A stretch of 64,000 nucleotides of DNA from Rubrivivax sp. Its GTDB lineage: Bacteria; Pseudomonadota; Gammaproteobacteria; Burkholderiales; Burkholderiaceae_C. The DNA lies in contig JAIXWM010000082.1 of assembly GCA_027491255.1 (NCBI GenBank), positions 1-64,000 of the forward strand, given 5' to 3'. A program made the translations under genes and the position numbers. The notes under the pieces were generated by a model. It saw only the letters and a list, made by a program, of their open reading frames with translations, was not told the DNA's origin and searched no databases. Positions 8,361 through 58,927 of the stretch are shown here, piece after piece; within the stretch, counting starts at the first letter, position 1, and each line of letters opens with the position of its first letter.

Positions 8361-10772
<2,412 letters not shown>

Positions 10773-15427: not shown

Positions 15428-16498
15428 TCAGCCGCCCGCGACCGCGGCGCTGAAGACATCGCGCAGGCGCGCGGTCCAGGCCGCCTTCTGCGCCGCGGGC
15501 ACGAAGCTCGCCTCGAAACTGTTCTGCGCCAGCTGCCAGGCCTCGCGCGCGCCGAGCTGCGGCAGCGCCTCGAAGGTTTTGAGGAAGTTATCAGCGATAT
15601 AGCCACCGAAGTAAGCAGGATCGTCGCTGTTGACGGTGGCGCACAGACCTTCGGCCAGCAGCTGCGGCAGGTTGTGCTGCGCCAGCGAGGGGAACACGCA
15701 CAGCCTCACGTTCGACAGCGGGCACACCGTCAGCGGCACGCGCTCACGCGCCAGGCGCTGCGTGAGCGCCGGGCTGTCGGTGCAGCGCACGCCATGATCG
15801 ATGCGTTCGACCTTGAGCACGTCGAGCGCGGTCTCGATGTAGGCCGGCGGCCCCTCCTCCCCGGCATGCGCCACCACGTGCAGGCCGAGCGCGCGGCAGC
15901 GCGCGAAGACGCGCGCGAATTTCTCCGGGGGGTGGCCACGCTCGCTGCTGTCGAGTCCGACGCCGATGAAGTGATGCCGGTGCACAAGGGCCTGCTCCAG
16001 CGTGGCGAAGGCCTCATCCTCGCTGAGGTGGCGCAAAAAGCACAGGATCAGCTGCGCGCTGATGCCGAACTCGGCGTGTGCGCGCCGACAGGCGTGGGAC
16101 AAGCCCACCACCACGGCTTCCATCGGCACGCCGCGCATGGTGTGCGTCTGCGGGTCGAAGAAGATCTCCGCGTGCACCACACCGTCGGCCGCGGCGCGCT
16201 CCAGGTAGGCCCAGGCGAGGTCGAAGAAGTCGGCCTCCTTCAGCAGCACGCTGGCGCCGGCGTAGTAGATGTCGAGAAAGCTCTGCAGGTCGGTGAAGGC
16301 GTAGGCCGCGCGCAGCGCCTCGACACTGGCGTGGGGCAGCGCCACGCCGTTGCGCCGCGCCAGCCGGAAGATCAGCTCAGGCTCGAGCGAGCCCTCGATG
16401 TGCAGGTGCAACTCGGCCTTGGGCATCGCGCGCAGCAGCGCCGGCAGCCGCGAGCGCGGGATGGCGTCGAAGTCGATCGGGGGCGCTTGGTCGTTCAC
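15428..16498 (-). CDS. Adenine deaminase (adenosine-deaminase superfamily)
   Basis: Zinc hydrolase predicted to convert adenine to hypoxanthine and ammonia. It is 356 aa. Metal ligands are in [12 protein letters not shown] (His31, His33), in VVAHAGEEG and in [11 protein letters not shown]. The segments [33 protein letters not shown] and ERIDHGVRC match the fungal Aah1-type adenine deaminase branch rather than true adenosine deaminases, which favours adenine as substrate; automatic annotation would often say adenosine deaminase. The GTG start has GAGGAG eight bases upstream. It is the distal gene of the minus-strand purine island and would feed xanthine dehydrogenase. Confidence 0.85.
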
Positions 16499-16577
16499 GG
16501 CGAGGGCTCCTCAGGCATGGTCGCGTTGAGCATGCCATGCGCGGCCGGCGCGGGCAACGCGCAGCGACAAGCCCGCG

Positions 16578-17534
16578 TCAGCAGACGCCGTAGCCGATGC
16601 CGCAGGCCTTCAGGTAACGCCTGTAGGCGGCGCTGAGGCGGTCGGCTGCACCCATGGCCTCACCACCGGACAGCGGCAGGCGTTTGGGCTGCTGCGATTC
16701 GAGCACGGGCTGGTCCTGGGAAAAGATCGTGACCTGGAAGTCGAGCAGGGCCTGGGCCGGCGTGTCCTCGTCGGTCGTGTACTGCGCAAACCACAGCCGG
16801 CAGCTTTCCGGCGTCGTCGGGCAGGCCCAGATCGTGTAGCTGTCCTCGGGCCCGCCGGCCTGCCCGCGCTTGGTCAGCAGCGCCGCATACGGGCTCAGCA
16901 CCTCGTAGCGGTACTCGACCCAGTCGCCGCCCGCGGAGGTGGCCGAGGCGCGCGGCTGCCAAGCCCGGTAGCACTCGATCACAGGCCGGCCATCGGCCGT
17001 GTGCGTGACCTCGTAAGGCGGCACCTCGGGGTGCTGCGCATCGCCGAGCCACCCTTCATGCACGAAGGCGAAGTGCGAGGTGTCGAGGAAGTTCTCGACC
17101 GCGCGCGGCGCGCTGGTCGCGGTGTCGAAGGGCCCGTAGACCAGCCGCCGCGGCGCCACGCTGGGAAGTGCCGGCAAAGGATGCGAAGCCCCACCTGCGT
17201 CCGCCCAGAGCAGCCCGTGCGCCTCGCGCAAGGGCAGGCACTCAACGCTGCTGGAGTCGGGCGGTGTGAACCCGGGCTGGGCCGGGACCGCGACACACCG
17301 GCCCGCTGCATCGAAGCGCCAGCCGTGGTACGGACACTGCAGTGCGCCACCATGCAGCCGCCCCATCGACAGGCGCGCACCCCTGTGCGAGCACTGGTCA
17401 GCCAGCAGCGAGGGCCGGCCCTGGGCGTCGCGCCAAAGCACGAGCCGACGGTCGAACAACTGGAGCGCCACGGGCCCGTCACGCGCGTCATCGGCCAGCG
17501 CAACCGGCCACCACCATGCAGCTTCCTTCAACAC
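16578..17534 (-). CDS. Rieske-type oxygenase alpha subunit, NdmA/HpxD-like
   Basis: Mononuclear non-heme iron oxygenase of about 318 aa. The Rieske [2Fe-2S] motif reads CSHRGARLS then CPYHGW (C-x-H-x17-C-x2-H). The iron site ENFLDTSHFAFVH has the Asp/His/His pattern. The late segment DQPVLESQQPKRLP and final YRRYLKA resemble purine N-demethylases such as NdmA in layout, and HpxD of the Klebsiella hypoxanthine pathway is another purine-linked relative. A reaction on a methylated or oxidised purine is inferred from motifs and the neighbouring purine genes. No reductase gene is nearby. GTG (17534) or the next codon TTG, both just after AGGAGG, is preferred to the ATG at 17630. Confidence 0.75.
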   Translation of the reverse strand: MLKEAAWWWPVALADDARDGPVALQLFDRRLVLWRDAQGRPSLLADQCSHRGARLSMGRLHGGALQCPYHGWRFDAAGRCVAVPAQPGFTPPDSSSVECLPLREAHGLLWADAGGASHPLPALPSVAPRRLVYGPFDTATSAPRAVENFLDTSHFAFVHEGWLGDAQHPEVPPYEVTHTADGRPVIECYRAWQPRASATSAGGDWVEYRYEVLSPYAALLTKRGQAGGPEDSYTIWACPTTPESCRLWFAQYTTDEDTPAQALLDFQVTIFSQDQPVLESQQPKRLPLSGGEAMGAADRLSAAYRRYLKACGIGYGVC

Positions 17535-44849: not shown

Positions 44850-45887
44850 ATGCACCTGCAGCACCTGCGCTACCTGCAGCTTGTCGTCGAGAAAGGCTCC
44901 TTCGCGTCAGCAGCCGAAGCCGCTGGCGTCAGCCAACCGGCGATCGCCCTGGCCATGCGCGGCCTCGAGCAGGCCTGGGGCATTGTCCTGTTCGAAAAAA
45001 CCGGACGGCAGAAGACACCGACCCGCGCCGCGGTGCGGGCAGCACAGCAGGCCGGCGAACTGCTGGGCCGGATCGAGCACCTGCCAAGGACCGCCATCGA
45101 ACCACCGGACGGGAGCCTGGGCCTCAGATCGTCCATGCTGCGCGTGGGCATGGCGCCCGCTGCAGCCTTGCTGTATGCACGGGCCGTCGAGGCTGCCTGG
45201 CGGCTGCACGCGCCCGACGGGTTGCTCCAGATCGTGGGAGGCAACGCGTCGGAGATGCTCACTGCGCTGCAGAACGATGGCCTCGACCTGGTGATCGCAC
45301 CGCTGCCGCGCCGATACTCGGCTGCGGGCATCAAGCGCCTGACCCTGCACACGAGCACGCCGACCATCCACGCCCGCATGGGCCACCCGCTGGCCGGCGC
45401 GCGGTCGCTGCGCGACATCGCCGCAGCCGGCTGGGCCGTGACGGGTCGCGCGGGCACCGCGGGCAATGTGATCGAGGAGGCTCACCGCGTCCACCGGCTG
45501 CCGCCGCCACGCATCCTCGTCCAGTGCGGTAACTATCCGACCCTGCTCGAGCTCGTGTCGCAGACCGACCTGCTCTGCGTGGTGCCCCACCCAGTCCTGA
45601 GGCCGAGCGACGCTGCCCGCGGCGGGTTTTGCGTCGTCAAGGTGGACGAAGGTCTTCCGCTGTATGAGGTGTGCCTGTTCTGGCCGGCCACGAGGGAGCC
45701 TGGCCATGCGACGCTCATTGCCAGCCTGGTGGACCGCCTCCAGCCACCCCCCGCGGGCTGCGAGCCGCCTCCACGGGGGGTGGGCAGACCCCAGGCTTGC
45801 GTCAGAACAAGCCCACGATCCGCCCGTCGTCGTCGACGTCGATGTGCGCCGCCGAGGGCAGCGCGGGCAGGCCCGGCATGGTCATGA
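44850..45887 (+). CDS. LysR-family regulator with arginine-rich C-terminal extension
   Basis: 345-aa transcription factor; residues 5-62 form the helix-turn-helix ([20 protein letters not shown]), followed by a substrate-binding domain to about residue 298. The last 47 residues (Pro/Arg-rich) begin exactly where a palindromic element starts and run 86 bp antisense into the fhs 3' end. This tail is unlike LysR proteins and was probably gained when the repeat displaced the natural stop. It likely controls the Bug receptor-sulfatase genes directly upstream. Confidence 0.83.
45744..45783. repeat. Palindromic element at the LysR/fhs junction
   Basis: CCACCCCCCG (45744-45753) pairs with CGGGGGGTGG (45774-45783), with GGCT-GCG-AGCC nested inside. 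It lies 18 bp past the fhs stop and within the LysR reading frame. It probably terminates fhs transcription and may be a mobile REP-like sequence. Confidence 0.55.
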
Positions 45888-47475
45888 GGTCGCCGCAGAC
45901 GAGCACCACGAACTCGGCCCCGGCGGCCAGCCGCACCTCGCGCACGTCGATCTCGTGGCCCTCGATCGCGCCGCGCTGGTTGGGGTCGGTGCCCCAGGAG
46001 TAAGGCGTCTTGGCGATGCACACCGGCAGGTGGCCGAAGCCCTGGTCCTGCAGCTTCTGCAGCTGCGCGCGCACCTTCGAGCCCGCCACCAGGCCCTTGG
46101 CGCGGTAGACGCGCCGCGCCACCGTCTCGGCCTTGTCCCACAGCGTGGCCTCGTCGGGGTAGAGGAAGGCCGGCGCGGGGTTCGGCGCGCTGGCGCAGGC
46201 CACGACGGCGCGCGCCAGTTCCTCGGCGCCGCGCCCGCCTTCGGCCCAGTGCCGGGCCACGACCATGGGCACGCCGGTGGCGGCCACGCGCTCGCGCACC
46301 ATCGCCACCTCGGCGTCGGTGTCGTGCACGAAGTGGTTCAGCGCCACCACACAGGGCAGGCCGTAGACGCGGGCGACGTTGTCGACATGGCGCTCCAGCG
46401 AGGCCAGGCCCGCCGCCAGGCGGGGCAGGTCTTCCCGGGACAGCGCCTTCACGTCGGCCCCGCCCTGGTACTTCAGCGCCCGCACGCTGGCGACGATCAC
46501 CGCCGCCGAGGGCCAGAGCCCGGCCTTGCGGCACTTGATGTCGAGGAACTTCTCGGCCCCCAGGTCGGCGCCGAAACCCGCCTCGGTGACCACCCAGTCG
46601 GCCAGCTGCAGGCCGGTGCGCGTGGCCATGACCGAGTTGCAGCCGTGGGCGATGTTGGCGAACGGCCCGCCGTGGATGAAGGCCGGGTTGTTCTCGAGTG
46701 TCTGCACCAGGTTGGGCTGGATCGCGTCGCGCAGCAGCGCCGCCATCGCGCCGGTGGCCTGCAGGTCGGCCGCGGTGACCGGCTTGCCGTCGAGCGAGGT
46801 GGCCACGACGATGCGCGCCAGCCGGGCCTTCAGGTCGGCCAGGCTGGTGGCCAGGCACAGGATGGCCATGATCTCGGAGGCGACGACGATGTCGAAGCCG
46901 TCCTGGCGCGGGTAGCCGTTGCCGGGCCCGCCCAGGCCGACGACGATCTCGCGCAGCGCGCGGTCGTTCATGTCGACGACGCGCTTCCAGGTGATGCGCC
47001 GCGCATCGATGCGCAGCGCGTTGCCGTGGTGGATGTGGTTGTCGACCAGCGCGGCCAGCAGGTTGTGCGCAAGCGCGATGGCCTGGAAGTCGCCGGTGAA
47101 GTGCAGGTTGATGTCCTCCATCGGCACCACCTGCGCGTGGCCGCCACCGGCCGCGCCGCCCTTCATGCCGAACACTGGCCCGAGCGAGGGCTCACGCAGG
47201 CACACCACGGCGCGCTCGCCGATGCGGTTGAGCGCATCGCCCAGGCCCACGGTCGTGGTCGTCTTGCCCTCGCCGGCGGGCGTGGGGTTGATGCCGGTGA
47301 CCAGCACCAGCCGCCCCGGTGCCCGCCCCTGCAGCGTGCGCAGGTGGGCGAGCGTGATCTTGGCCTTGTGGCGCCCGTAGGCCACGAGCGCGTCCTCGGG
47401 CAGGCCGAGCCGCTCGGCGATCTCGGTGACCGGCTTCAGGGTCGCCGACTGGGCGATGTCGATGTCGCTGCGCAT
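45802..47475 (-). CDS. fhs: Formate-tetrahydrofolate ligase
   Basis: ATP-dependent enzyme that joins formate to tetrahydrofolate to give 10-formyl-THF, or runs in reverse. It is 557 aa. The P-loop is [18 protein letters not shown]; further signatures are [19 protein letters not shown] and the [10 protein letters not shown] segment. The start at 47475 is preceded by a doubled GAGGAGCCCCC, giving a strong ribosome-binding site. It is last in the sdaA-soxBDAG-fhs operon, where it would handle formate and one-carbon units from sarcosine oxidation. Confidence 0.96.
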
Positions 47476-47525: not shown

Positions 47526-48062
47526 TCAGGCCTCGATCATCCCGCACTCCAGCGTGCTGCGCCGCAGCAACTCGCCGACATAGCCGGCGAAGCTGCTGCG
47601 CACCAGCAGCTCGAAGGCGTCGTCTTCGGTGCGCCACAGCCACACCGAAGCCTTGAAGAAGTGCGTGCCGGTGCAGCGCCCCACCGGGAAGACGCGCGGG
47701 TGCAGGTCCTGCGGGCAGCCCTGGGCGAGCACGTCGCGCACCAGCGCGCCGGCCAGCCGCAGCACGCAGTAGCCGCTGCTGACGTCGGTGACGGCGTGGT
47801 GGCGCGCGCCGGCAGCCGCGCGCAGCGCGCCTGCGATCGCACCCTCGGCGCCCGACTCGCCGACGACGAACCAGTCGTCGGGGCCGGCCCAGACGATGCG
47901 CCGGGCCGCATTCGACGGGCACTGTCCCGCCTGCGTCGGCAGCGGAAGGCCGACGGCCGCCGAGACGGTGTCGACGAAGCCCGTGTCGGCCGGGTCGCCG
48001 CGCAGATTGACGATGGCGCGGCTGCAGTCCCAGCGGACCTGCAGGTGGGTGTCAGCTGGCAT
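47526..48062 (-). CDS. soxG: Sarcosine oxidase gamma subunit
   Basis: 178-aa small structural subunit of heterotetrameric sarcosine oxidase. It has the GCV_T-related fold with [27 protein letters not shown] and the [20 protein letters not shown] segment typical of SoxG. It overlaps the end of soxA by 11 bp and is followed after 50 bp by fhs. Confidence 0.93.
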
Positions 48063-51000
48063 TCTGGCGCTCCCCCTTGGTGTCGTAGAAGACCGGGCTC
48101 GAGATCACGGCCGTGCGGCTGCGGCCGTCGCTGGTGGCCACGTGCACCCGCTCGCCCAGGCGCGCATGGCCGCCGCGCACCAGGGCGAGCGCGATCGAGC
48201 GGCCCAGCGTCGGGCTCCAGTAGCTCGAGCTCACGTGACCGGCCATCGGCACCGGGCCCGGGCCCTGGGGCCAGTCGCCCATCAGCACCTGCGCGCCCTC
48301 GGGCAGCACGAAGGCCGGGTCGTCGGTCAGCAGGCCGACGAGCTGCTTGCGGTCGGCGCGCGCGGTGTCGCTGCGCGCGAGCGAACGCTTGCCCAGGCAG
48401 TCCTTGGTCTTGGCCACCATGCCGCCCAGGCCCAGGTCGATCGGCGTCACCGAGCCGTCGGTGTCCTGCCCGACGATGATGAAGCCCTTTTCGGCCCGCA
48501 GCACGTGCATGGTCTCGGTGCCGTAGGGCGTGATGCCGAACTCGGCGCCGGCCGCGTGGATGGCCTCCCAGACCTGCAGGCCGTGGGCCGCCGGCACGTT
48601 GATCTCGTAGCTGCGCTCGCCCGAGAAGCTGATGCGGAAGATCCGCGCCTTCACCCCGGCCACCGTGCCCTCGCGGTACGACATGAAGGGGAAGGCGGCG
48701 TCGTCGAAGTCGACGTCGGGGCAGATCTTCTTCAGCACCGCGCGGCTCTTCGGGCCGACCACGGCCGTGGTCGACCAGTGGTCGGTCACCGTGGTCAGGT
48801 AGACCTTCAGGTGCGGCCATTCGGTCTGCAGCCAGCGCTCCAGCCAGGCCAGCACCCGCGCCGCGCCGCCGGTGGTGGTGTGCATCAGGAAGTGGTTCTC
48901 GGCCAGGCGCACGGTGACGCCGTCGTCGAAGACCATGCCGTTCTCGTCGAGCATCAGGCCGTAGCGCGCCTTGCCGACCTCGAGCTTGCTCCAGGCGTTG
49001 GAGTAGACCCAGTTCAGCAGCGTCGCGGCGTCAGGCCCCTGGATGTCGATCTTGCCCAGCGTCGAGGCGTCCAGCGTGGCCACGGCCTCGCGCGCGGCGC
49101 GCACCTCGCGCGCCACGGCGGCGTGCAGGTCCTCGCCCGGCTTCGGGAAGTACCAGGGCCGCTTCCACTGCCCCACGTCCTCGAAGGCGGCGCCGCGGGC
49201 CACGTGCCAGGGCTGGATGCAGGTGGTGCGCACCGGGTCGAAGGTGTCGCCGAGTTCCATGCCGGCCAGCGCGCCGAAGGTCACCGGCGTGTAGTTGGGG
49301 CGGAAGGTCGTCGTGCCCACCTTCGGGATCGGCTTGCCCAGGGCCTGGGCGACGATGCCCATGCCGTTGATGTTGCCGGTCTTGCCCTGGTCGGTGCCGA
49401 AACCCATCGCGGTGTAACGCTTGACGTGCTCGATGCTCTCGAAGCCCTCGCGCACGGCCAGCAGCAGGTCGGCTGCGCAGACGTCGTTCTGGAAGTCGAC
49501 GAACTGCTTGGGTGCGCGCGACGGCGGCAGCGCGTGCGGCACCAGCCACAGCGGGCGGATGGCGCCCGCCTGCGCTGCCGCAACGGCCGGCGGCTCGCCG
49601 GCCGGGCCGGTGCAGCCGCCAGCATGCGCCGTCGCCAGCCCCGCGGCCGCGCCACCGGCGGCCGCCTCGGCCAGCGTGCGCGCGCCGGCGCAGGCGCCGG
49701 CCGAGCGCTCGGACTGCGCCGGCGCGCCGGGCAGGAAGGTCGCGAGCTCGTCGCTCCACACGGCCTTGCTGCCGGCCTGCGAGTGCAGGTGGATGACGGC
49801 GCTGGCGCCGCCGCTGGTGGCCAGCAGGTCGCAGGCCAGCGTGCGGGGGGCGCCCTGCAGGCGGCCGTCGTCGGTGATCGCCTGGACGAGGGCGCCGGTG
49901 ACCGCGCGGCGACCCTGGGCCTCGGTGACGACGTGGCCCGCCAGCACCTCGATGCCGGCGGCGCGCGCGCGCTCGCCCATCGAGCCGTCAGGCCGGGCGC
50001 GGGCATCGACCACCTGCACCTGCGCGCCGGCGGCCTTCAGCGCCAGCGCCGCGTCGTAGGCGCCGTCGTGGTTGGTGAAGACGACGGCCCGCCGGCCCGG
50101 CAGCACCGCGTAGCGGCGCACGTAGGTGGAGACTGCCGAGGCGAGCATCACGCCCGGCAGGTCGTTGTGGGCAAAGACCAGCGGGCGCTCGTGCGCCCCC
50201 GTGGCCAGCACCACCTGCCTGGCGCGCACCCGCCACAGCCGCTCGCGGTAGGCGGGCTGGCGCCCGCGCGGCAGGTGGTCGGCGCGCTTCTCGACCAGGG
50301 TCACGAAGTCGTGGTCGTGGTAGCCGAAGGCCGTGGTGCGCGGCAGCACGGTGACATCGGGCATCGCGGCCAGCTCGCGCGCCGTCAGCTCGGCCCACTT
50401 CGGCGCCGGCCAGCCGTCCACCGTCTCGTCGCTGGACAGCAGCCAGCCGCCGGGCTCGGACTGCTCGTCGCACAGGATCACGCGCGCCCCGGCCCGGGCC
50501 GCGGCGCGCGCCGCCGCCAGGCCGGCGATGCCGGCGCCCACCACCAGCACGTCGGCGTGGGCGTAGCGCTTGTCGTAGCGGTCGGGGTCGGGCACCTCGG
50601 GCGAGTGGCCCAGGCCGCTGGCGGCGCGGATGTGCTTCTCGAAAAAGTGCCAGGCCGCCTGCGAGGCCATGAAGGTCTTGTAATAGAAGCCGGCCGGGAT
50701 CAGGCGCGAGAACCAGCCGTTGACCGCGCCGACGTCGAACTCGACGCTCGGGCTGGCGTGGATGCTGCGGGCCACCAGCCCGTCGACCAGCGCGGCCTCG
50801 GTCATCCGCACATTGGGCACGGTGCGCTCACCCTCGAACAGCTGCACCAGCGCGTTCGGCTCCTCCACGCCGGCGGCGAGCAGGCCGCGTGGGCGGTGGT
50901 ACTTCCAGCTGCGCGCGACCAGGCTCTGCCCGGCCGCCAGCAGCGCCGAGGCCAGCGTGTCGCCCTCGTACCCGGTGTAGGGCCGGCCGTTGAAGCTGAA

Positions 51001-51066
51001 CTGCAGCGGCCGGCTGCGATCGATGCGCCCGCCCTGCGGCAGGCGGCGGTTGGCGGCGGCGCTCAT
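48052..51066 (-). CDS. soxA: Sarcosine oxidase alpha subunit
   Basis: 1004-aa subunit that binds NAD+ and tetrahydrofolate and converts the imine product to 5,10-methylene-THF. The N-terminus has a ferredoxin-like segment (FNGRPYTGYEGDTLASALLA, 25-44); a Rossmann domain follows (DVLVVGAGIAGLAAARAA, 172-189); the C-terminal 400 residues resemble glycine cleavage T-protein, including GRSIALALVRGG. The start at 51066 overlaps the soxD stop by ATGA. Confidence 0.95.
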   Translation of the reverse strand: MSAAANRRLPQGGRIDRSRPLQFSFNGRPYTGYEGDTLASALLAAGQSLVARSWKYHRPRGLLAAGVEEPNALVQLFEGERTVPNVRMTEAALVDGLVARSIHASPSVEFDVGAVNGWFSRLIPAGFYYKTFMASQAAWHFFEKHIRAASGLGHSPEVPDPDRYDKRYAHADVLVVGAGIAGLAAARAAARAGARVILCDEQSEPGGWLLSSDETVDGWPAPKWAELTARELAAMPDVTVLPRTTAFGYHDHDFVTLVEKRADHLPRGRQPAYRERLWRVRARQVVLATGAHERPLVFAHNDLPGVMLASAVSTYVRRYAVLPGRRAVVFTNHDGAYDAALALKAAGAQVQVVDARARPDGSMGERARAAGIEVLAGHVVTEAQGRRAVTGALVQAITDDGRLQGAPRTLACDLLATSGGASAVIHLHSQAGSKAVWSDELATFLPGAPAQSERSAGACAGARTLAEAAAGGAAAGLATAHAGGCTGPAGEPPAVAAAQAGAIRPLWLVPHALPPSRAPKQFVDFQNDVCAADLLLAVREGFESIEHVKRYTAMGFGTDQGKTGNINGMGIVAQALGKPIPKVGTTTFRPNYTPVTFGALAGMELGDTFDPVRTTCIQPWHVARGAAFEDVGQWKRPWYFPKPGEDLHAAVAREVRAAREAVATLDASTLGKIDIQGPDAATLLNWVYSNAWSKLEVGKARYGLMLDENGMVFDDGVTVRLAENHFLMHTTTGGAARVLAWLERWLQTEWPHLKVYLTTVTDHWSTTAVVGPKSRAVLKKICPDVDFDDAAFPFMSYREGTVAGVKARIFRISFSGERSYEINVPAAHGLQVWEAIHAAGAEFGITPYGTETMHVLRAEKGFIIVGQDTDGSVTPIDLGLGGMVAKTKDCLGKRSLARSDTARADRKQLVGLLTDDPAFVLPEGAQVLMGDWPQGPGPVPMAGHVSSSYWSPTLGRSIALALVRGGHARLGERVHVATSDGRSRTAVISSPVFYDTKGERQNAS

Positions 51067-51413
51067 CGGGCGGCTCCTTCGGCGGCGGGCAGCGCGGCCG
51101 GGGTGGCCGGTGTGGCAGCCCCCTGCCCCAGCCGCGCGAAGGCCGGCGGCGGCTCGGCGCCGATCTTCCAGGTGCCGTGGAAGCGGTAGCTGACGGTGTC
51201 GCGCAGCGCGTTGAACCACTTGCCGCAGCCGCTGGCGTGGCGCCACTGCTCGTGGTGCAGGCCCTTGGGGTTCTTGCGCATGAAGACGTAGTCGCCCCAC
51301 TGCTCGTCGCTCATCGCCTCGGTGGCCCCGGGCCGGGCGATGCCGCCCTCCCCGCCGTAGGCGAACTCGCTCTCGGCGCGGGGGCCGCACCAGGGACAGT
51401 CGATGATCAGCAT
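51063..51413 (-). CDS. soxD: Sarcosine oxidase delta subunit
   Basis: 116-aa zinc-binding subunit. It begins MLIIDCPWCGPRAESEF, and the four zinc ligands known in heterotetrameric sarcosine oxidases are all present at the same positions: Cys6, Cys9, His59 and Cys63 (HASGCGKWF). The C-terminus has an Ala/Pro-rich tail of about 25 residues. It follows soxB by 20 bp and overlaps soxA by ATGA. The open frame upstream of 51413 belongs to another frame of soxB. Confidence 0.95.
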   Translation of the reverse strand: MLIIDCPWCGPRAESEFAYGGEGGIARPGATEAMSDEQWGDYVFMRKNPKGLHHEQWRHASGCGKWFNALRDTVSYRFHGTWKIGAEPPPAFARLGQGAATPATPAALPAAEGAAR

Positions 51414-51433: not shown

Positions 51434-52678
51434 TCAGTGGGCGACGGCGGCGGCGCCGTGCTCGTCGATCAGGTGGCCGTTGTGGAAACGGTCGAGGCTG
51501 AAGGCCTCGTTCAGCGGGTGCGGGCGGTCCTGGGCCACGGTATGCGCCATCACCCAGCCCGAGCCCGGCGTGGCCTTGAAGCCGCCGGTGCCCCAGCCGC
51601 AGTTGATGTACAGGCCCTTGACCGGCGTCAGGCCGATGATCGGGCAGGCGTCGGGCGAGACGTCGACGATGCCGCCCCACTGGCGGTTCATGCGCACGCG
51701 CGAGAACAGCGGGAACAGCTCGACGATGGCCTGCAGCGTGCCTTCGATGATGGGGAAGCTGCCGCGCTGGCCGTAGCCGGTGTAGTGGTCGATGCCGGCG
51801 CCGATGACCAGGTCGCCCTTGTCGCTCTGGCTGATGTAGGCGTGGATGGCATTGCTCATCACCACGGTCGGGAAGATGGGCTTCATCGGCTCGCTGACCA
51901 GCGCCTGCAGCGGGTGGCTCTCGAGCGGCAGGCGGAAGCCCGCCAGCGAGGCCAGCACGCTGGAGTGGCCGGCGGCGACGATGGCCACCTTCTTCGTGCG
52001 GATGAAGCCGCGCGCGGTGTCCAGGCCCACCACCGCGCCGCCCTCGCGCCGGATGCCGGTGACCTCGCAGTTCTGCAGGATGTCCACGCCCAGCGCATCG
52101 GCGGCGCGCGCGAAGCCCCAGGCCACGGCATCGTGCCGGGCCACGCCGGCGCGGCGCTGGTACGAGGCGCCCAGCACCGGGTAGCGCGTGCTCAGGTTGA
52201 TGAAGGGCAGCATCGCCTGGATCTGCTGCGGGCTCAGCATCTCGGCGTCGACTCCGTTCAGGCGGTTGGCGGTGACGCGGCGCTCGATGTCGCGCATGTC
52301 CTGCAGCGTGTGGCCGAGGTTCATCACCCCGCGCTGGCTGAACATGACGTTGTAGTTCAGGTCCTGGCTCAGACCCTCCCACAGCTTCATCGACTTCTCG
52401 TAAAGGTGGGTGGCCTCGTCCCACAGGTAGTTGCTGCGCACGATGGTGGTGTTGCGCGCGGTGTTGCCGCCACCCAGCCAGCCGCGCTCGACCACGGCGA
52501 TGCGCCGCATGCCGTGCAGCTTGGCCAGGTAGTAGGCCGTCGCCAGGCCGTGCCCGCCGCCGCCCACCACCACGGCCTCGTACTCGCGCTGCGGCTCGGG
52601 CGCGCGCCACTGGCGCTGCCAGCCTTCGTGGTAGCCCAGCGCGTTGCGCGCCAGCGACCAGATCGAGAACTTCTGCAT
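51434..52678 (-). CDS. soxB: Sarcosine oxidase beta subunit
   Basis: 414-aa flavoprotein subunit that oxidises sarcosine. The FAD motif is [19 protein letters not shown] (35-53). His182 in [17 protein letters not shown] corresponds by context to the histidine that holds covalent FMN in the family. [17 protein letters not shown] near the C-terminus is the conserved FAD-binding end. The start at 52678 ([14 protein letters not shown]) is the standard SoxB N-terminus. It follows sdaA by only 11 bp. Confidence 0.96.
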
Positions 52679-52689
52679 CCGTGCCTCCT

Positions 52690-54084
52690 TCAGCACTCGA
52701 CGATGTTGACGGCCAGCCCGCCGCGGGCCGTCTCCTTGTACTTGGTCAGCATGTCGGCGCCGGTCTCGCGCATGGTCTTGATGACCTTGTCCAGGCTGAC
52801 GTGGTGCGTGCCGTCGCCGCGCAGCGCCATGCGCGCGGCGTTGATCGCCTTGACCGAGGCGATCGCATTGCGCTCGATGCACGGGATCTGCACCAGCCCG
52901 CCCACGGGGTCGCAGGTCAGGCCCAGGTGGTGCTCCATGCCGATCTCGGCCGCGTTCTCCACCTGCTCGGGCGTGCCACCCATCACCGCGCACAGCGCGC
53001 CGGCGGCCATCGAGCAGGCCACGCCCACCTCGCCCTGGCAGCCGACCTCGGCGCCGCTGATGCTGGCGTTCTCCTTGTAGAGGATGCCGATGGCCGCGGC
53101 GGTGAGCAGGAAATCCACCACGCCGCGGTCGTGCGCCCCGGGCACGAAGCGTGCGTAGTAGTGCAGCACCGCCGGGACGATGCCGGCCGCGCCGTTGGTG
53201 GGCGCCGTGACGACGCGACCGCCGGCAGCGTTCTCCTCGTTGACGGCCAGCGCGTAGAGATTGACCCAGTCGATCACCTGCAGCGGGTCCTTCAGCGCGG
53301 CTTCAGGGTTCGACGTCAGGTCACGGTAGAGCGCCGCGGCGCGGCGGCGCACCTTGAAGCCGCCCGGCAGTACCCCCTCGGTGCGGCAGCCGCGCGTCAC
53401 GCAGGCCTGCATCACCTGCCAGATCTTCATCAGCCCGGCGTCGATCTCGGCGTCGCCGCGCCAGTGGCGCTCGTTGCGCCGCATCACCTCGGCGATCGAG
53501 CAGCGCTGGGTGCGCGTCAGCTCCAGCAGCTCGGCCCCGCTGCGGAAGGGCAGCGGCAGCACCGTGGCGTCGGGCGCCACGGCCTTGTGGCGCGAGCCGT
53601 CGGCCGCGACCTCGTCGCTGACGACGAAGCCGCCGCCCACCGAGTAGTACACCCGCGCGCACAGCTCGCCGCCGTCGGCGCCGAAGGCCGCGAAACGCAT
53701 GCCGTTGGCGTGGAAGGGCAGCGTCTGCCGGCGGTGGAAGACCAGGTCGGCCTTCTCGTCGAAGGCGACCGCCGGGCCCGTGCCGCCCAGCGGCAGGCGG
53801 CCGCCGCCGCGGATGGCCTCGAGCAGCGACGGCACGGCCTCTACATCGACGGTGTCGGGCTCGTGCCCGGCCAGGCCCAGCAGCACCGCCTTGTCGCTGC
53901 CATGGCCCTTGCCCGTGGCGCCGAGCGAGCCGAAGAGCTCGGCCTTGACGCGCGCCACCTGCGCCAGTTGCGCGTCGGCCGCCAGGCGCGCCGTGAACAG
54001 GCGCGCGGCCCGCATCGGGCCCACGGTGTGCGAACTGCTCGGCCCGATGCCGATCTTGAAGAGGTCGAAAACGGAAACAGCCAT
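52690..54084 (-). CDS. sdaA: L-serine ammonia-lyase (serine dehydratase)
   Basis: Iron-sulfur enzyme that converts L-serine to pyruvate and ammonia. It is 464 aa, the single-chain form. It starts [20 protein letters not shown], the typical SdaA N-terminus, and has the cluster and active-site segments [17 protein letters not shown] and [18 protein letters not shown]. It is first in the operon with soxBDAG and fhs: sarcosine gives glycine and methylene-THF, serine hydroxymethyltransferase (elsewhere) joins these to serine, and SdaA makes pyruvate. Confidence 0.96.
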
Positions 54085-54130
54085 GGATGCGGGATGATCG
54101 GCGCGGGGGGCCGAAGCCACCTGCCTTTTT

Positions 54131-54157
54131 ACGTCACTCTACAAGACCGATGCGACA
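54131..54157 (-). promoter_or_regulatory. Direct-repeat operator upstream of sdaA-sox-fhs
   Basis: On the minus strand TGTCGC (54157-54152) and TGACGT (54136-54131) are direct half-sites 21 bp apart, 47 bp before sdaA. The same layout occurs before the creatinase gene, where eight bases around the first half-site (TGTCGCAT) are identical. This matches the 21-bp TGTCGC-type half-site known for GATase1-AraC activators such as Pseudomonas ArgR. Confidence 0.5.
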
Positions 54158-54278
54158 AGCGGCGGCACGGAAGCCGCCCGACCACCGAATCGAGACCTCC
54201 AGACCGTGCTCTTCCGGAGATCGACCGATCGCACGCCCGGCTCTACTGCAGACATCCCCGTTTCAAGTCCGTCGCCCC

Positions 54279-55211
54279 ATGTCTCCGTTCGCATCGGCAG
54301 CGGCCGCGCCATCGGCCGTCGAGACCCGGTACCGATCCAGTGACCCCCTGCAGCAGGCCATCGCCTTGAAAACAGCCGACGACGACGTACGCAGCGTCTT
54401 TTCCGCCCTGCTGCGCGAAGCCGGGCACGAAGGGTGGAAGTCGGCAGCAGCTCAGACCGAGCGGGTGACGGCCGAGCGCGCCGTGGCGAGTTGGGAGGGC
54501 TGGCTCGCGGCCCACGGCAGTTCCCGGTACGGCTTCGATCAGCAAGGCGGTTTCCTGCCCCTGCGGGGACTGGAGGGCAACCCTTCCGTTCGCCGGGGCA
54601 AGGGCTCCGACGACCTGCGGCAGGACTTCGGCCGCATCGTGCACGACGCCGTGCAGGCCGGCGCCTATGCAGCGCCCGAGGCCTGGCTGCGCAGCCTGCC
54701 GGCAGCGGACCTGGCCGCGCTGCAGCAGGTGCACCATCTGGCCGACCCGATCGAGCCCTGCACGCTGTCGAGGGAGGGTGCGCTGAACCTGCTGATGCCG
54801 CCCGCGGCCACCGTGGATCTGGACGGCAACGGCTTGACTTCGGCCGGCCGCGGGGGCTCGCTGCCCTTCCCGGACAGTCGCACTCCACCGCAGGCGGTCC
54901 GAGCCTGGGAGCAGGCCACCCGCGGGATGTCCGCCGAGGAAAAGCTGCTGCGCTCGGGCTCCATCGTCTTCCACGTCGGCCCCGAGAACATCCACCTGAA
55001 CAGCCGCGGCGAATGTGTCCGGGTCTCGATGCCGGGCGACCCCGATTTCGTCAACGCGAGGGAGGCCGCCGGGTTCAGCTGGGCCGACTTCGCCGCAGGG
55101 AAGCTCGACGCCCTGGAACACTTCAAGTCGAAGATCGAGCCGGCGCAGTACGCGCGGGATCGAGCCTTCTGGTCCGCGTTCCGCGACGCGCTGCCGGAGA
55201 AGCAACCCTGA
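54279..55211 (+). CDS. Hypothetical protein with a DxDGNG calcium-type loop
   Basis: 310 aa from the ATG at 54279; the frame is open to 54087 but that part overlaps the sdaA promoter. I do not recognise the family. It appears soluble, without signal peptide or membrane helices. Notable segments are SRYGFDQQGGFLPLRG, ATVDLDGNGLTSAG (a D-x-D-x-N-G loop like a calcium-binding EF-hand), FPDSRTPPQAVRAWEQAT and FHVGPENIHLNSRGE. Codon use is like its neighbours. It is divergent from sdaA and precedes the AraC-type gene on the same strand by 77 bp, so it may share the creatine/sarcosine regulon. Confidence 0.7.
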   Translation: MSPFASAAAAPSAVETRYRSSDPLQQAIALKTADDDVRSVFSALLREAGHEGWKSAAAQTERVTAERAVASWEGWLAAHGSSRYGFDQQGGFLPLRGLEGNPSVRRGKGSDDLRQDFGRIVHDAVQAGAYAAPEAWLRSLPAADLAALQQVHHLADPIEPCTLSREGALNLLMPPAATVDLDGNGLTSAGRGGSLPFPDSRTPPQAVRAWEQATRGMSAEEKLLRSGSIVFHVGPENIHLNSRGECVRVSMPGDPDFVNAREAAGFSWADFAAGKLDALEHFKSKIEPAQYARDRAFWSAFRDALPEKQP

Positions 55212-55288
55212 ACGCCTGAAACGGGCCCCGGCGGAGCCCTCCGGCAGAGCGCCCGCAGCGACGCGCTGGCATCATCCGAGATGCGCGT

Positions 55289-56305
55289 GTGGCAGGCACC
55301 GGACCTGCCGGCGCGCCCCCCGTGACGCACGACGCTCCCTCACCCCAGCGCTACGGACTGCTGCTGGTGCCGCAGTTCTCGCTGATCGCGCTGGCCGCGG
55401 TCGTCGATCCGCTGCGTCTGGCCAACAGCGTGCTCGAGCGGCGCGCCTACGAATGGGTGACGATCGGCCTCGCCGGCGAGCCCGTGATCTCGAGCGACGG
55501 CATCCGCGTGGTGCCCGACGCCTCCACCGACGACGGCCTGGCCTTCGACACCGTCTTCGTCATCGGGCCGAACCCGATCCCGCGCCGGGGCTTTGCCGAG
55601 ATCTCGGCCTGGCTGCGGCGCCAGGCCGCCGGCGGCGCCGCCGTGGGCGGCATCGACACCGGCGCCTATTACCTGGCGCAGGCCGGCCTGCTGAGCAACC
55701 ACCGCTGCACCATCCACTGGGAGGACCGCGAGCGCCTGCTCGAGAACTTCCCGAGCCTGCAGGTGACGCAGCGCCTGTTCGAGGTCGATCGCGACCGCTA
55801 CACCTGCAGCGGCGGCGTCAGTCCGCTCGACATGATGACCTGGCTGCTCAGCCGGCCGCCCGGCAACCGCGAGCTCGCCGAGCAGGTGGCGCACCTGCTG
55901 GTGGCGCAGCGTCGCGAGCCCGACGCGCTGCAGAACGTGCCGCTGCGCGACCGCTTCGCCAACGTTCCCGCGCCGCTTCTCGACGCGCTCGAGCTGATGG
56001 AGAGCAACCTCGAGGAGCCGCTGCACGTGGACGAGATCGCGCACTACCTGCGGATCTCCAGACGGACCCTCGAACGCCTGTTCGGCCTGCACCTGAAGAC
56101 CACGCCTTCGCGCAAATACCTGGAGCTGCGGCTGGCGCGCGCGCGCCTGGCGGTGCTGCGAAGCCAGCGCAGCCTGGACGACATCGCGCAGTCCTTCGGC
56201 TTCGCCTCGGCGAGCCACTTCGTCGCACGCTACCGGCAGATGCACGGTTGCACCCCGGCGGCCGACCGCGCGGGACGCACTGCTTCGGAGCGCGCACCGG
56301 ACTGA
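55289..56305 (+). CDS. GATase1-AraC (GlxA-like) activator, probable creatine/sarcosine regulator
   Basis: 338-aa regulator with an N-terminal class I glutamine-amidotransferase-like domain (about 22-200; GGIDTGAYYLAQAGLL and TCSGGVSPLDMMTWL) and a C-terminal AraC DNA-binding domain with two helix-turn-helix motifs (LHVDEIAHYLRISRRTLERL and LDDIAQSFGFASASHFVARY). GbdR, SouR and CdhR, which sense betaine, sarcosine and carnitine, are in this family. The start is uncertain: GTG at 55289 or GTG at 55322, neither with a good ribosome-binding site. It lies between the sox operon and creatinase. Confidence 0.88.
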   Translation: MAGTGPAGAPPVTHDAPSPQRYGLLLVPQFSLIALAAVVDPLRLANSVLERRAYEWVTIGLAGEPVISSDGIRVVPDASTDDGLAFDTVFVIGPNPIPRRGFAEISAWLRRQAAGGAAVGGIDTGAYYLAQAGLLSNHRCTIHWEDRERLLENFPSLQVTQRLFEVDRDRYTCSGGVSPLDMMTWLLSRPPGNRELAEQVAHLLVAQRREPDALQNVPLRDRFANVPAPLLDALELMESNLEEPLHVDEIAHYLRISRRTLERLFGLHLKTTPSRKYLELRLARARLAVLRSQRSLDDIAQSFGFASASHFVARYRQMHGCTPAADRAGRTASERAPD

Positions 56306-56407
56306 GGCGCATGCGCCCCCTGTGCAGCGCCGCGGGCCGGCGCTCACAAAGGCTGTGCGCGATGCACAGACCCGGTGCCGGCTACGGGTTTTCACTTAAC
56401 CCAAGGA

Positions 56408-56441
56408 TGTCGCATTCATGACATTTTTTGGCGCATTCCTG
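56408..56441 (+). promoter_or_regulatory. Direct-repeat operator upstream of creatinase
   Basis: TGTCGCATTCATG (56408-56420) is repeated as TGGCGCATTCCTG (56429-56441), 11 of 13 bases identical, starts exactly 21 bp apart. The first copy also lies in an inverted repeat ATGTC/GACAT (56407-56424). Creatinase starts 68 bp further on. The form suits an AraC-family activator binding two turns of one helix face. Confidence 0.6.
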
Positions 56442-56509
56442 GGGGCTTGAACACGCCCTGAAATCGATCATTCGAGGCATCGCGAACTGCCCCAGCAAGG
56501 AGCCTGTCG

Positions 56510-57727
56510 ATGATCGACAACATGCCCAGCCTGATCCGCCTGCGCAACGGCGAGAAGGTCAAGAACACCTTCCCCGTCGAGGAATACACCGCGCGGGTGG
56601 CCAAGGTGCGGCGCCACATGGCCGGGCACGGCATCGACGCGGTGCTGTTCACCTCGTACCACAACATCAACTACTACAGCGACTTCCTGTACTGCTCCTT
56701 CGGCCGCTTCTACGGCCTGGCGGTCACGCACGACAAGACGACCCTGATCGCCGCCAACATCGACGGCGCTCAGCCCTGGCGCAAGGGCGTGGCCGACGAC
56801 GTGCTGACCTATACCGATTGGCAGCGCGGCAACTACTTCCGCGCCGTCGCGCAGACCCTGGCCGGCTGCCGGCGCATCGGCGTCGAGATGGACCACCTGC
56901 CGGTGGACCGCCTGAAGGCGCTGCAGGAGGCGCTGCCGGGCGTCGAGTTCATCGATGTGGCCGCGGCCTGCATGCGCATGCGCATGGTCAAGTCACCGGC
57001 CGAGATCGAGTTCATCGCCCATGGCGCGCAGGTCTGCGACATCGGCGGCGCGGCCCTCGTTGCCGCCGTCAAGGAAGGCGTGCCCGAGCACGAGGTGGCC
57101 CTGGCCTCCACCGACGCGATGGTGCGCGAGATCGGCAGGCGTTTCCCGCACACCGAGCTGATGGACACCTGGACCTGGTTCCAGAGCGGCATCAACACCG
57201 ACGGCGCGCACAACCCCGTCACCACCCGACGCGTTCAGAAGGGCGACATCCTCAGCCTGAACTGCTTCTCGATGATCTCGGGCTACTACACGGCACTGGA
57301 GCGCACGCTCTTCCTCGACCACGCCAGCGATGCCCACCTCAGGCTGTGGGAGATCAACGTCAAGGTGCACGACGAGGGCAAGAAGCTGCTGAAGCCCGGC
57401 GTCAAGTGCAGCGAGGTCGCGCGCGAGCTGAACAAGATCTTCGCCGCGCACGACCTGCTGCAGTACCGAACCTTCGGCTACGGTCACTCCTTCGGCGTGC
57501 TCAGCCACTACTACGGCCGCGAGGCCGGGCTGGAACTGCGCGAGGACATCGACACCGTGCTGGAGCCGAACATGGTGATCTCGATGGAGCCGATGATCAT
57601 GCTGCCTGAAGGCCTGCCGGGCGCCGGCGGCTACCGCGAGCACGACATCCTGGTCATCACGCCCGAGGGCAACCGCAACCTCACCGGCTTCCCGTACGGG
57701 CCCGAGCACAACATCATCAAGGCGTGA
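56510..57727 (+). CDS. Creatinase (creatine amidinohydrolase)
   Basis: Hydrolyses creatine to sarcosine and urea. It is 405 aa, against 403 for the well-studied Pseudomonas putida enzyme, and collinear with it. Shared blocks are FTSYHNINYYSDFLYCSFGR, MDTWTWFQSGINTDGAHNP and FGYGHSFGVLSHYYGREAGL. His234 in DGAHNPVTTR matches the catalytic His232 of that enzyme. It has the pita-bread fold of M24 peptidases without metal. AAGGAG precedes the ATG by seven bases; Met5 is an alternative start. It stands alone between two GlxA-like regulators and provides the substrate of the SoxBDAG enzyme. Confidence 0.95.
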   Translation: MIDNMPSLIRLRNGEKVKNTFPVEEYTARVAKVRRHMAGHGIDAVLFTSYHNINYYSDFLYCSFGRFYGLAVTHDKTTLIAANIDGAQPWRKGVADDVLTYTDWQRGNYFRAVAQTLAGCRRIGVEMDHLPVDRLKALQEALPGVEFIDVAAACMRMRMVKSPAEIEFIAHGAQVCDIGGAALVAAVKEGVPEHEVALASTDAMVREIGRRFPHTELMDTWTWFQSGINTDGAHNPVTTRRVQKGDILSLNCFSMISGYYTALERTLFLDHASDAHLRLWEINVKVHDEGKKLLKPGVKCSEVARELNKIFAAHDLLQYRTFGYGHSFGVLSHYYGREAGLELREDIDTVLEPNMVISMEPMIMLPEGLPGAGGYREHDILVITPEGNRNLTGFPYGPEHNIIKA

Positions 57728-57925: not shown

Positions 57926-58927
57926 TCAGCCCAACGACTGAGGCTGAGCCTCGGCCCGCCCGCGCGCGCGCAGCTCTCGTGGGCTGCGGCCGTAGGCCTG
58001 CCGCACCGCGCGAGCGAAGTGCGCGCTGTCCTGGAACCCGCACTCCAGGCTCACCGAGCCGACTTCCAAATCGCTGTGGACGAGCAGCCAGCGCGCACGC
58101 TCCAGCCGCAGCCGCAGCCGGTAGCCGGCCGGGCTGAGACCGACGTCCTGCCGGAAGCGGCGTTCCAACTGGCGCCGCCCCAGCCCGAGCTGGTCGCACA
58201 CGGCCTGCACGGCCAGCGCCTCGTGCAGACGCTGCTCGAGCAGCAGCATGGCCTTGCGCACCAGCGGGTCGCTGGCGCGCTCGGTCAGCACCTCCTCGGG
58301 CTGCAGCGCGGTGGCGGGCAGCGGCTGGTCCTCGATCAGGATGCGCAGCGCCTTGGTGGCGCTGGCGCGGGCGACCGCCTGTTCGATCAGGTGGGCCGCC
58401 AGGTGCACGACGCTGGTGCCGCCGGCGCAGGTCAGGCGCTCGCGGTCGACGACGAACATCCGGTTCGACACCACCCGGTGGCCCGGGAACTCGGCCTCGA
58501 AGTCGGCGCGGTGGAACCAGCTCACGCAGGCCAGGTGGCCGTCGAGCAGACCGGCACGGGCCAGGACGAAGGAGCCGGTGCACAGCCCCACCAGCCGCCG
58601 CCCCGCGGCCGCCGCCTCGCGCAGGAAGGCGGTGACCGCGCCCGGCACCTTCTGCCCGCCGTGCAGCAGGCCACCGACGACGACCACCACATCCCAGGCC
58701 GCCGCCTCGCCCAGCGTCGCGGTCGGCGCGACGGAACAGCCACAGCTCGAACGCACAGGCTCGCTGCCCAGGACATCCCAACGGATGAGGCGTTGCCGGC
58801 TGCGGTCACCGTCGTCTGCGGCCAGCCGCAGCGCGTCGACGAAGCCGGCGAAGGCCGTCAGCGTGAACCGCGGCGCGAGCAGGAAGGCCACGCGCAGGCG
58901 GGTGGAAGGCGCATCGCCAGATAACAT
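57926..58927 (-). CDS. Second GATase1-AraC (GlxA-like) regulator
   Basis: 333-aa protein with a DJ-1/PfpI-like N-terminal domain (RVAFLLAPRFTLTAFAGFVD; VGLCTGSFVLARAGLL with the nucleophile-elbow Cys retained; TCAGGTSVVHLAAHLI) and a C-terminal AraC domain (VCDQLGLGRRQLERRF, LECGFQDSAHFARAVRQAYG). The ligand is unknown. The start at 58927 is ATG; the frame is open far upstream over the EamA gene. It is divergent from the EamA exporter gene with a 45-bp gap and convergent with creatinase, so it may control the exporter. Confidence 0.88.
   Translation of the reverse strand: MLSGDAPSTRLRVAFLLAPRFTLTAFAGFVDALRLAADDGDRSRQRLIRWDVLGSEPVRSSCGCSVAPTATLGEAAAWDVVVVVGGLLHGGQKVPGAVTAFLREAAAAGRRLVGLCTGSFVLARAGLLDGHLACVSWFHRADFEAEFPGHRVVSNRMFVVDRERLTCAGGTSVVHLAAHLIEQAVARASATKALRILIEDQPLPATALQPEEVLTERASDPLVRKAMLLLEQRLHEALAVQAVCDQLGLGRRQLERRFRQDVGLSPAGYRLRLRLERARWLLVHSDLEVGSVSLECGFQDSAHFARAVRQAYGRSPRELRARGRAEAQPQSLG

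Follow-up and report, generated by a model that had tools for sequence, protein, structure and literature searches.

Candidate operators of GATase1-AraC regulators at creatinase and a sarcosine oxidase operon in a Rubrivivax genome

Introduction

A 64,000-nucleotide stretch of a Rubrivivax sp. genome (assembly GCA_027491255.1, contig JAIXWM010000082.1, positions 1 to 64,000; called the window below) holds a creatinase gene and, on the opposite strand, an operon in which sdaA is followed by the sarcosine oxidase (sox) genes soxB, soxD, soxA and soxG and by fhs. A gene for a GATase1-AraC regulator, here called 55289 after its position, lies between the two. A first-pass annotation made from the sequence alone reported direct repeats with a 21-bp period upstream of both creatinase and sdaA, and proposed that 55289 acts on both in a single creatine/sarcosine regulon. 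Are these repeats operators, and which regulator do they serve? The window also holds a second GATase1-AraC gene, 57926, a paralogue of 55289 that is absent from the first-pass annotation and points towards creatinase.

We consider it probable, from sequence comparison, that both repeats are operators for GATase1-AraC activators, with 55289 acting at creatinase and 55289, 57926 or both acting at the sdaA-sox operon. The conservation of the repeats, their geometry and the order of the genes around them are read directly from the sequences. The repeats recur at orthologous promoters and share the geometry of the CdhR site of Pseudomonas aeruginosa, which supports the earlier view of them as conserved GATase1-AraC-type operators. 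Genomes and loci are referred to by numbers beginning with G and L.

Results

Both repeats are present exactly where the first-pass annotation placed them (Table 1). In each, a 6-bp half-site and a 15-bp spacer put the half-site starts 21 bp apart, and the distal half-site reads TGTCGCAT in both, confirming that the first half-site is common to the creatinase and sdaA repeats. The sdaA repeat is 72 bp upstream of sdaA, which heads its operon.

Repeats of this form are common. TGNCGY-N15-TGNCGY has eight matches on the two strands of the window, and GNCGCA-N15-GNCGCA has 214 matches in the genome versus 196 for a reversed control. We therefore rejected the bare pattern as evidence; because it is so common, the two repeats exceed chance only together with their conservation in relatives.

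A search of 399 family genomes gave creatinase (E ≤ 1e-120) in five, and a 55289-type regulator (E ≤ 1e-90) turned up in four of 200, counting the Rubrivivax genome in each case. All four regulator genomes (Rubrivivax, G052, G070 and G168) also carry creatinase. The fifth creatinase genome, G267, lies outside the 200 and has the regulator directly before creatinase. A G-N-CGC pair with 21-bp spacing is found 87–101 bp before the creatinase start in four of the five (Rubrivivax, G267, G168 and G052); the G070 promoter has only one good half, the other being degenerate. Creatinase occurs in two of four genomes from the genus of G168, both already among the five. Of 18 creatinase loci (17 genomes) from the wider taxonomic class, all lacking a regulator match in their 1.5-kb flanks, one (L047) shows the pair within 450 bp of creatinase. 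It also matched once each in far-upstream coding sequence of L019 (305 bp) and L021 (400 bp), so the pattern does arise by chance at such lengths. G168 has, in addition, a second operator just after its regulator gene, before a short remnant of a creatinase N-terminus (L024, reverse strand, about 10,094–10,310 of the reversed locus).

On the sarcosine side, a soxB search returned 17 of 200 family genomes, at 19 places. The glyA, sdaA and sox genes are consecutive in G267, G127, G070, G186 and G082; unlike these relatives, the window operon has no glyA at its front. Pairs at 21 bp precede the first gene in G267, G127, G070, G186, G082, G040, G113 and G064, as they do at the window sdaA, and the G168 soxB promoter has one too. 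Several sox regions end at contig ends, so no promoter could be obtained from G158 and G052. The distant sox loci L109–L115 and the Rubrivivax genome's own second sox operon (L119) have no standout match at the sox promoter. Operator-like matches away from soxB promoters occur at L112:1832 (17.8 bits) and L120:3895 (17.4 bits).

The pair patterns applied to relatives were derived from the motif of the first-pass annotation. This seeding is answered by an unseeded Gibbs search (30 wide, 15 foreign promoters, window excluded), which reached 25.2 bits, compared with 15.3–16.1 for six shuffled sets. Of the 15 sites that it chose, 11 carry G-N-CG in each half at the 21-bp spacing. When the window was scored with a matrix of 13 sites, all from other genomes, the creatinase site ranked first (27.3) and the sdaA site second (19.1) of 127,936 positions, followed by a position at 11.4. 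The score of 19.1 was reached at none of 2,999,968 order-2 Markov positions. An Infernal model of the same 13 sites, a more cautious test run on the whole window, also placed creatinase first (E 0.0078), and a matrix of the 15 unseeded sites again placed sdaA second in the window (15.7). With each foreign site and its near kin removed from the matrix, 12 of the 13 sites ranked first or second in their own locus. As a predicted operator the creatinase site holds up unaided, and the sdaA site is weaker, convincing only together with its conserved-operon position and its -10 register.

That register is nearly constant. In all 24 promoters compared, a -10-like hexamer (second base A, sixth base T) starts 36 or 37 bp from the start of the proximal half-site. 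The best TATAAT match within +28 to +51, a range picked after viewing a few promoters, lies at +36/37 in 22 of the 24, against a maximum of 8 in 2,000 shuffles; when the range is widened to +8 to +79, the number falls to 14. The set was reduced from 26 by dropping the G168 remnant as well as one Azoarcus site of the two, and L161, a near copy of L160, was left out of the spacing, ACCC and register comparisons. No good -35 was found at the matching place in the promoters inspected by eye. An upstream operator at a fixed distance, with no good -35, is the arrangement expected of an activator-dependent promoter.

From these features we infer the following mechanism. A GATase1-AraC protein would occupy a direct repeat of two TGNCG half-sites, spaced 21 bp from start to start and lying immediately upstream of the -35 region. 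From there it would assist RNA polymerase at promoters whose -35 is poor and whose -10 begins 36–37 bp beyond the start of the proximal half-site. The protein at creatinase would be 55289, with creatine as its most likely signal. Sarcosine made by creatinase would be cleared by the products of the sdaA-soxBDAG-fhs operon, which has the same operator and -10 arrangement and on which 55289, the paralogue 57926 or both proteins may act.

AraC-type proteins are capable of both activation and repression, and the protein could in principle repress, rather than activate, from both sites. A precedent for inhibition is the model of CdhR, in which the protein inhibits its own gene (PMC5806209). CdhR is, however, described as a class I activator (PMC5806209), and the predicted operators keep a set distance on the upstream side of a core promoter that has no good -35. 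We think repression very unlikely.

Plasmids extend the comparison. Seven plasmid records hold a relative of the 55289 regulator at E ≤ 1e-60 (48–54% identity), and in all seven creatinase (about 72–74%) is the next gene downstream on the same strand. The converse fails: 412 plasmid records hold creatinase at E ≤ 1e-150 (262 from Klebsiella, 102 from Acinetobacter). In the single Klebsiella locus examined, on a Klebsiella oxytoca plasmid, creatinase is immediately preceded by a LysR-type gene, and the single Acinetobacter locus examined has a more distant GATase1-AraC gene (34%). Plasmid creatinase relatives are mostly found at 60–80% identity. On the Burkholderia vietnamiensis G4 and Paraburkholderia fungorum plasmids, the regulator, creatinase, glyA, sdaA and soxB follow in this order on one strand; in Paraburkholderia phymatum and Caballeronia SBC1/SBC2, glyA comes after creatinase.

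An exact GTCG-N17-GTCG precedes creatinase in Caballeronia NK8, P. phymatum, both P. fungorum copies, Caballeronia SBC2 and Azoarcus, and also precedes the P. fungorum creatininase; no exact copy was found before the creatinase of B. vietnamiensis or Acinetobacter. GTCG pairs at 21 bp occur in 12 of 25 promoters and at every other spacing from 8 to 60 in at most three, with a random expectation at 21 bp of 190 in 6,000 stretches of 250 bp. P. phymatum pBPHY01 also has a strong operator match (L158:14105-14137, 21.2 bits) before an unannotated frame, and a GATase1-AraC gene at 15693-16649 that is 42% like 57926.

Lack of conservation at orthologous promoters was one of two findings that the first-pass annotation had named as fatal to its proposal. 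Conservation is what we found, with exceptions that belong to a set of results weighing against the operator reading. The G170 and G039 sox promoters show no clear repeat, and on plasmids the second half is degenerate in B. vietnamiensis and weak in Acinetobacter. On eight plasmid loci the unchanged matrix, to which the prevailing plasmid half-site GTCGAA is a new form, ranks the creatinase-promoter site first in three, second in two and outside the top four in three. The looser G-N-CG pair, found at 21 bp in 21 of the 25 promoters, also occurs in 2,716 of 6,000 random 250-bp stretches. The G040 sdaA site ranks only sixth in the leave-out test. A whole-genome profile search (150 of 1,964 first-look candidates scored) came back empty and missed the window sites as well, so it supports no claim on the presence or absence of further targets. 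At sdaA, the Infernal E is only 1.2, although the site is second in the window, and 6 of 30 random 128-kb sequences hold a position at or above its score of 15.7 with the 15-site matrix. The predicted sdaA transcript (54099-54082, minus strand) would, moreover, start about 3 bases before the ATG and be almost leaderless, perhaps through the loss of glyA and its leader.

Might the creatinase site be real and the sdaA repeat a chance match? The Infernal value, the random-sequence count and the lack of an ACCC element (see below) would fit this. The repeat lies, however, just before an operon whose relatives carry the operator, it is second of 127,936 positions by held-out matrices, and at +37 it is followed by GATCAT, identical to the -10 candidate of creatinase. 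We regard a chance match as highly unlikely and treat both repeats as predicted operators in what follows.

Which protein would act at each operator is a separate matter. In a tree of 36 regulator proteins, with the plasmid ones left out, 55289 groups with proteins of G267, G070, G168 and G052 (100/99), and 57926 falls in a separate group with proteins of G070, G052, G127, G168, G064 and G113 (100/99). A scan of genome contigs gave nine loci at 36–42% identity, seven of which entered the tree.

The strict form of the first-pass proposal is that 55289 alone serves creatinase and sdaA-sox and that 57926 has another job. The one-strand gene order on the B. vietnamiensis G4 and P. fungorum plasmids fits this form, as does G267. 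A search of this genome found no 57926 orthologue (the best match, at 150.7 bits, is the 55289 orthologue itself); its 55289 orthologue is divergent from glyA-sdaA-sox, with good operators at both the glyA and creatinase promoters, and 55289 adjoins sdaA in the window in a similar position. The Rubrivivax genome does have 57926, however, and orthologues of 57926 adjoin sox operons elsewhere: in G127 the orthologue is divergent from glyA-sdaA-sox, and in G113 and G064 it immediately precedes soxB. These three operons show the same operator geometry. The window sdaA site also lacks ACCC, and a class score places it towards the genomes with 57926 orthologues (-15.2, on a scale that rests on 4 and 3 sites). 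Sole control by 55289 is a possible reading, somewhat less likely than not. The proposal of a single regulon stands in part: 55289 goes with creatinase, and the creatine and sarcosine genes are joined on two plasmids and both carry the operator in G267, while at sdaA either 55289 or 57926 may act.

Two parallel regulators are the other arrangement to consider, with 55289 as a creatine sensor acting only at creatinase and 57926 as a sarcosine sensor acting only at sdaA-sox. The two proteins belong to separate supported clades, and the 57926 orthologues of G127, G113 and G064 stand beside sox genes in genomes where searches for a 55289 orthologue (E ≤ 1e-90) and for a close creatinase (E ≤ 1e-120) both came up empty. 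The two window operators also differ in an upstream element. [AT]ACCC occurs within 25 bp upstream of the repeat at 14 of 19 regulator-linked sites versus none of six sites from genomes without that regulator (Fisher p 0.0026), an association that was spotted post hoc, in a table with many related rows and with the window sdaA row left out. The element is present at the window creatinase and absent at the window sdaA. In G168, G052, G267 and G070 the ACCC is part of GGGAAAACCC or GGGGAAACCC, which begins 20–21 bp before the first half-site; these sites are the creatinase and glyA operators of L024, L025, L030 and L101, and GGGGAAACCC is the form at the G267 creatinase. Six exact copies of GGGAAAACCC occur in 428 kb of loci, five of them at such operators, against about 0.9 expected in all.

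Other results fit parallel regulators less well. The class score, built on so few sites, puts the window creatinase site on the 57926 side too (-6.8), and a further set of matrices agrees. G186, G082 and G040 have sox operators and neither orthologue, their regulators resembling 55289 at about 39% at most; the operator by itself thus does not tell which protein uses it. G267 has the 55289 type beside sox. We would give a strict division of labour about the same weight as sole control by 55289. A further idea, which we think rather unlikely as it stands, is that the creatine sensor and its paralogue for sarcosine use a single rigid promoter plan (the 21-bp repeat with the -10 at a fixed distance), and that what distinguishes them is an extra element upstream of the repeat: (A)ACCC, which in several genomes is part of the fuller GGGAAAACCC about one repeat period before the first half-site. 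In that case sox operons would switch regulator by gaining or losing the element.

Comparison with known systems

The footprint of CdhR at caiX in P. aeruginosa spans 34 bp and holds two GGTCGC half-sites with a 15-bp spacer; the authors consider this site very similar to those of GbdR, SouR and ArgR (PMC5806209). The window sites resemble it in the T-C-G-C direct repeat, the 15-bp spacer and the placement upstream of the promoter. They differ in the half-site (TGTCGC in place of GGTCGC) and in the substrate, which is carnitine for CdhR and would be creatine here. The CdhR site is proven by footprint and mutation, whereas the window operators are known from sequence alone. GbdR (NCBIfam NF052371) has the same domain architecture and is the best NCBIfam match of 55289. 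Its cut-off of 480 bits is exceeded nowhere in this genome (55289 scores 300.9 and 57926 182.7), and 55289 is accordingly not classed as GbdR. SouR is the sarcosine regulator of P. aeruginosa and controls glyA1-sox; the gene neighbourhood hints that 57926 or 55289 may be its orthologue. CahR, the creatine regulator of Pseudomonas putida, is a GATase1-AraC protein encoded beside creatinase. In Corynebacterium glutamicum, creatine genes are controlled by AmtR (PMC8864220).

The window operators would thus be a well-supported but fairly ordinary case of a known type of gene switch, with a site type already described in Pseudomonas, and we make no claim that the promoter register and the ACCC element are unreported. 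They give creatine breakdown in Burkholderiales an operator that can be tested. The fixed -10 distance and the ACCC element would sharpen the prediction of such regulons, for which the bare pattern alone is useless. The locus also poses a clean question: how creatine and sarcosine are divided between two regulators that are paralogues and share one operator geometry.

Features of the window

Coordinates are collected in Table 1. The 55289 protein has the GATase1-AraC architecture, with PF01965 at 47.0 bits (cut-off 26.6) and PF12833 at 67.7 bits (cut-off 33.6). Creatinase is nearer to creatine amidinohydrolases (1chm, Table 1) than to prolidases (best E 1.8e-23).

Table 1. Predicted regulatory elements and genes at the creatinase and sdaA-sox locus, in window coordinates.
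Feature	Position	Strand	Remarks
Predicted creatinase operator, direct repeat	56408..56441	+	half-sites 56408-56413 TGTCGC, 56429-56434 TGGCGC
Predicted sdaA-sox operon operator, direct repeat	54124..54157	-	half-sites 54157-54152 TGTCGC, 54136-54131 TGACGT
AACCC element	56398..56402	+	10 bp before creatinase operator
Creatinase -10 candidate GATCAT	56466..56471	+	+37 from proximal half-site start
sdaA -10 candidate GATCAT	54094..54099	-	+37 from proximal half-site start
GATase1-AraC regulator (55289)	55289..56305	+	DJ-1/PfpI domain and AraC helix-turn-helix; start codon not fixed
Creatinase (creatine amidinohydrolase)	56510..57727	+	3' of 55289; 1chm E 8.9e-194; Pfam
Second GATase1-AraC regulator (57926), 55289 paralogue	57926..58921	-	Pfam; start codon not fixed
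sdaA-soxB-soxD-soxA-soxG-fhs operon	54084 down to 45802	-
sdaA, L-serine ammonia-lyase	52690..54084	-	operon's first gene here; TIGR00720, 704 bits vs cut-off 345
soxB, sarcosine oxidase beta subunit	51434..52675	-	
soxD domain	51165..51407	-	gene ends not fixed
soxA open frame	48052..51390	-	true start somewhere inside frame
soxG	47526..48062	-
fhs, formate-tetrahydrofolate ligase	45802..47469	-	domain extent, start not fixed

Between sdaA and 55289 lies an open frame of 374 aa (54087-55211, plus strand) that matches nothing in Pfam or NCBIfam. The frame overlaps the sdaA promoter; should it be a gene, a later ATG near 54279 is the likelier start. Elsewhere in the genome, a third operator-like match that may be due to chance (L121:4200-4232, contig C55, 16.5 bits) precedes a short-chain-dehydrogenase-like frame.

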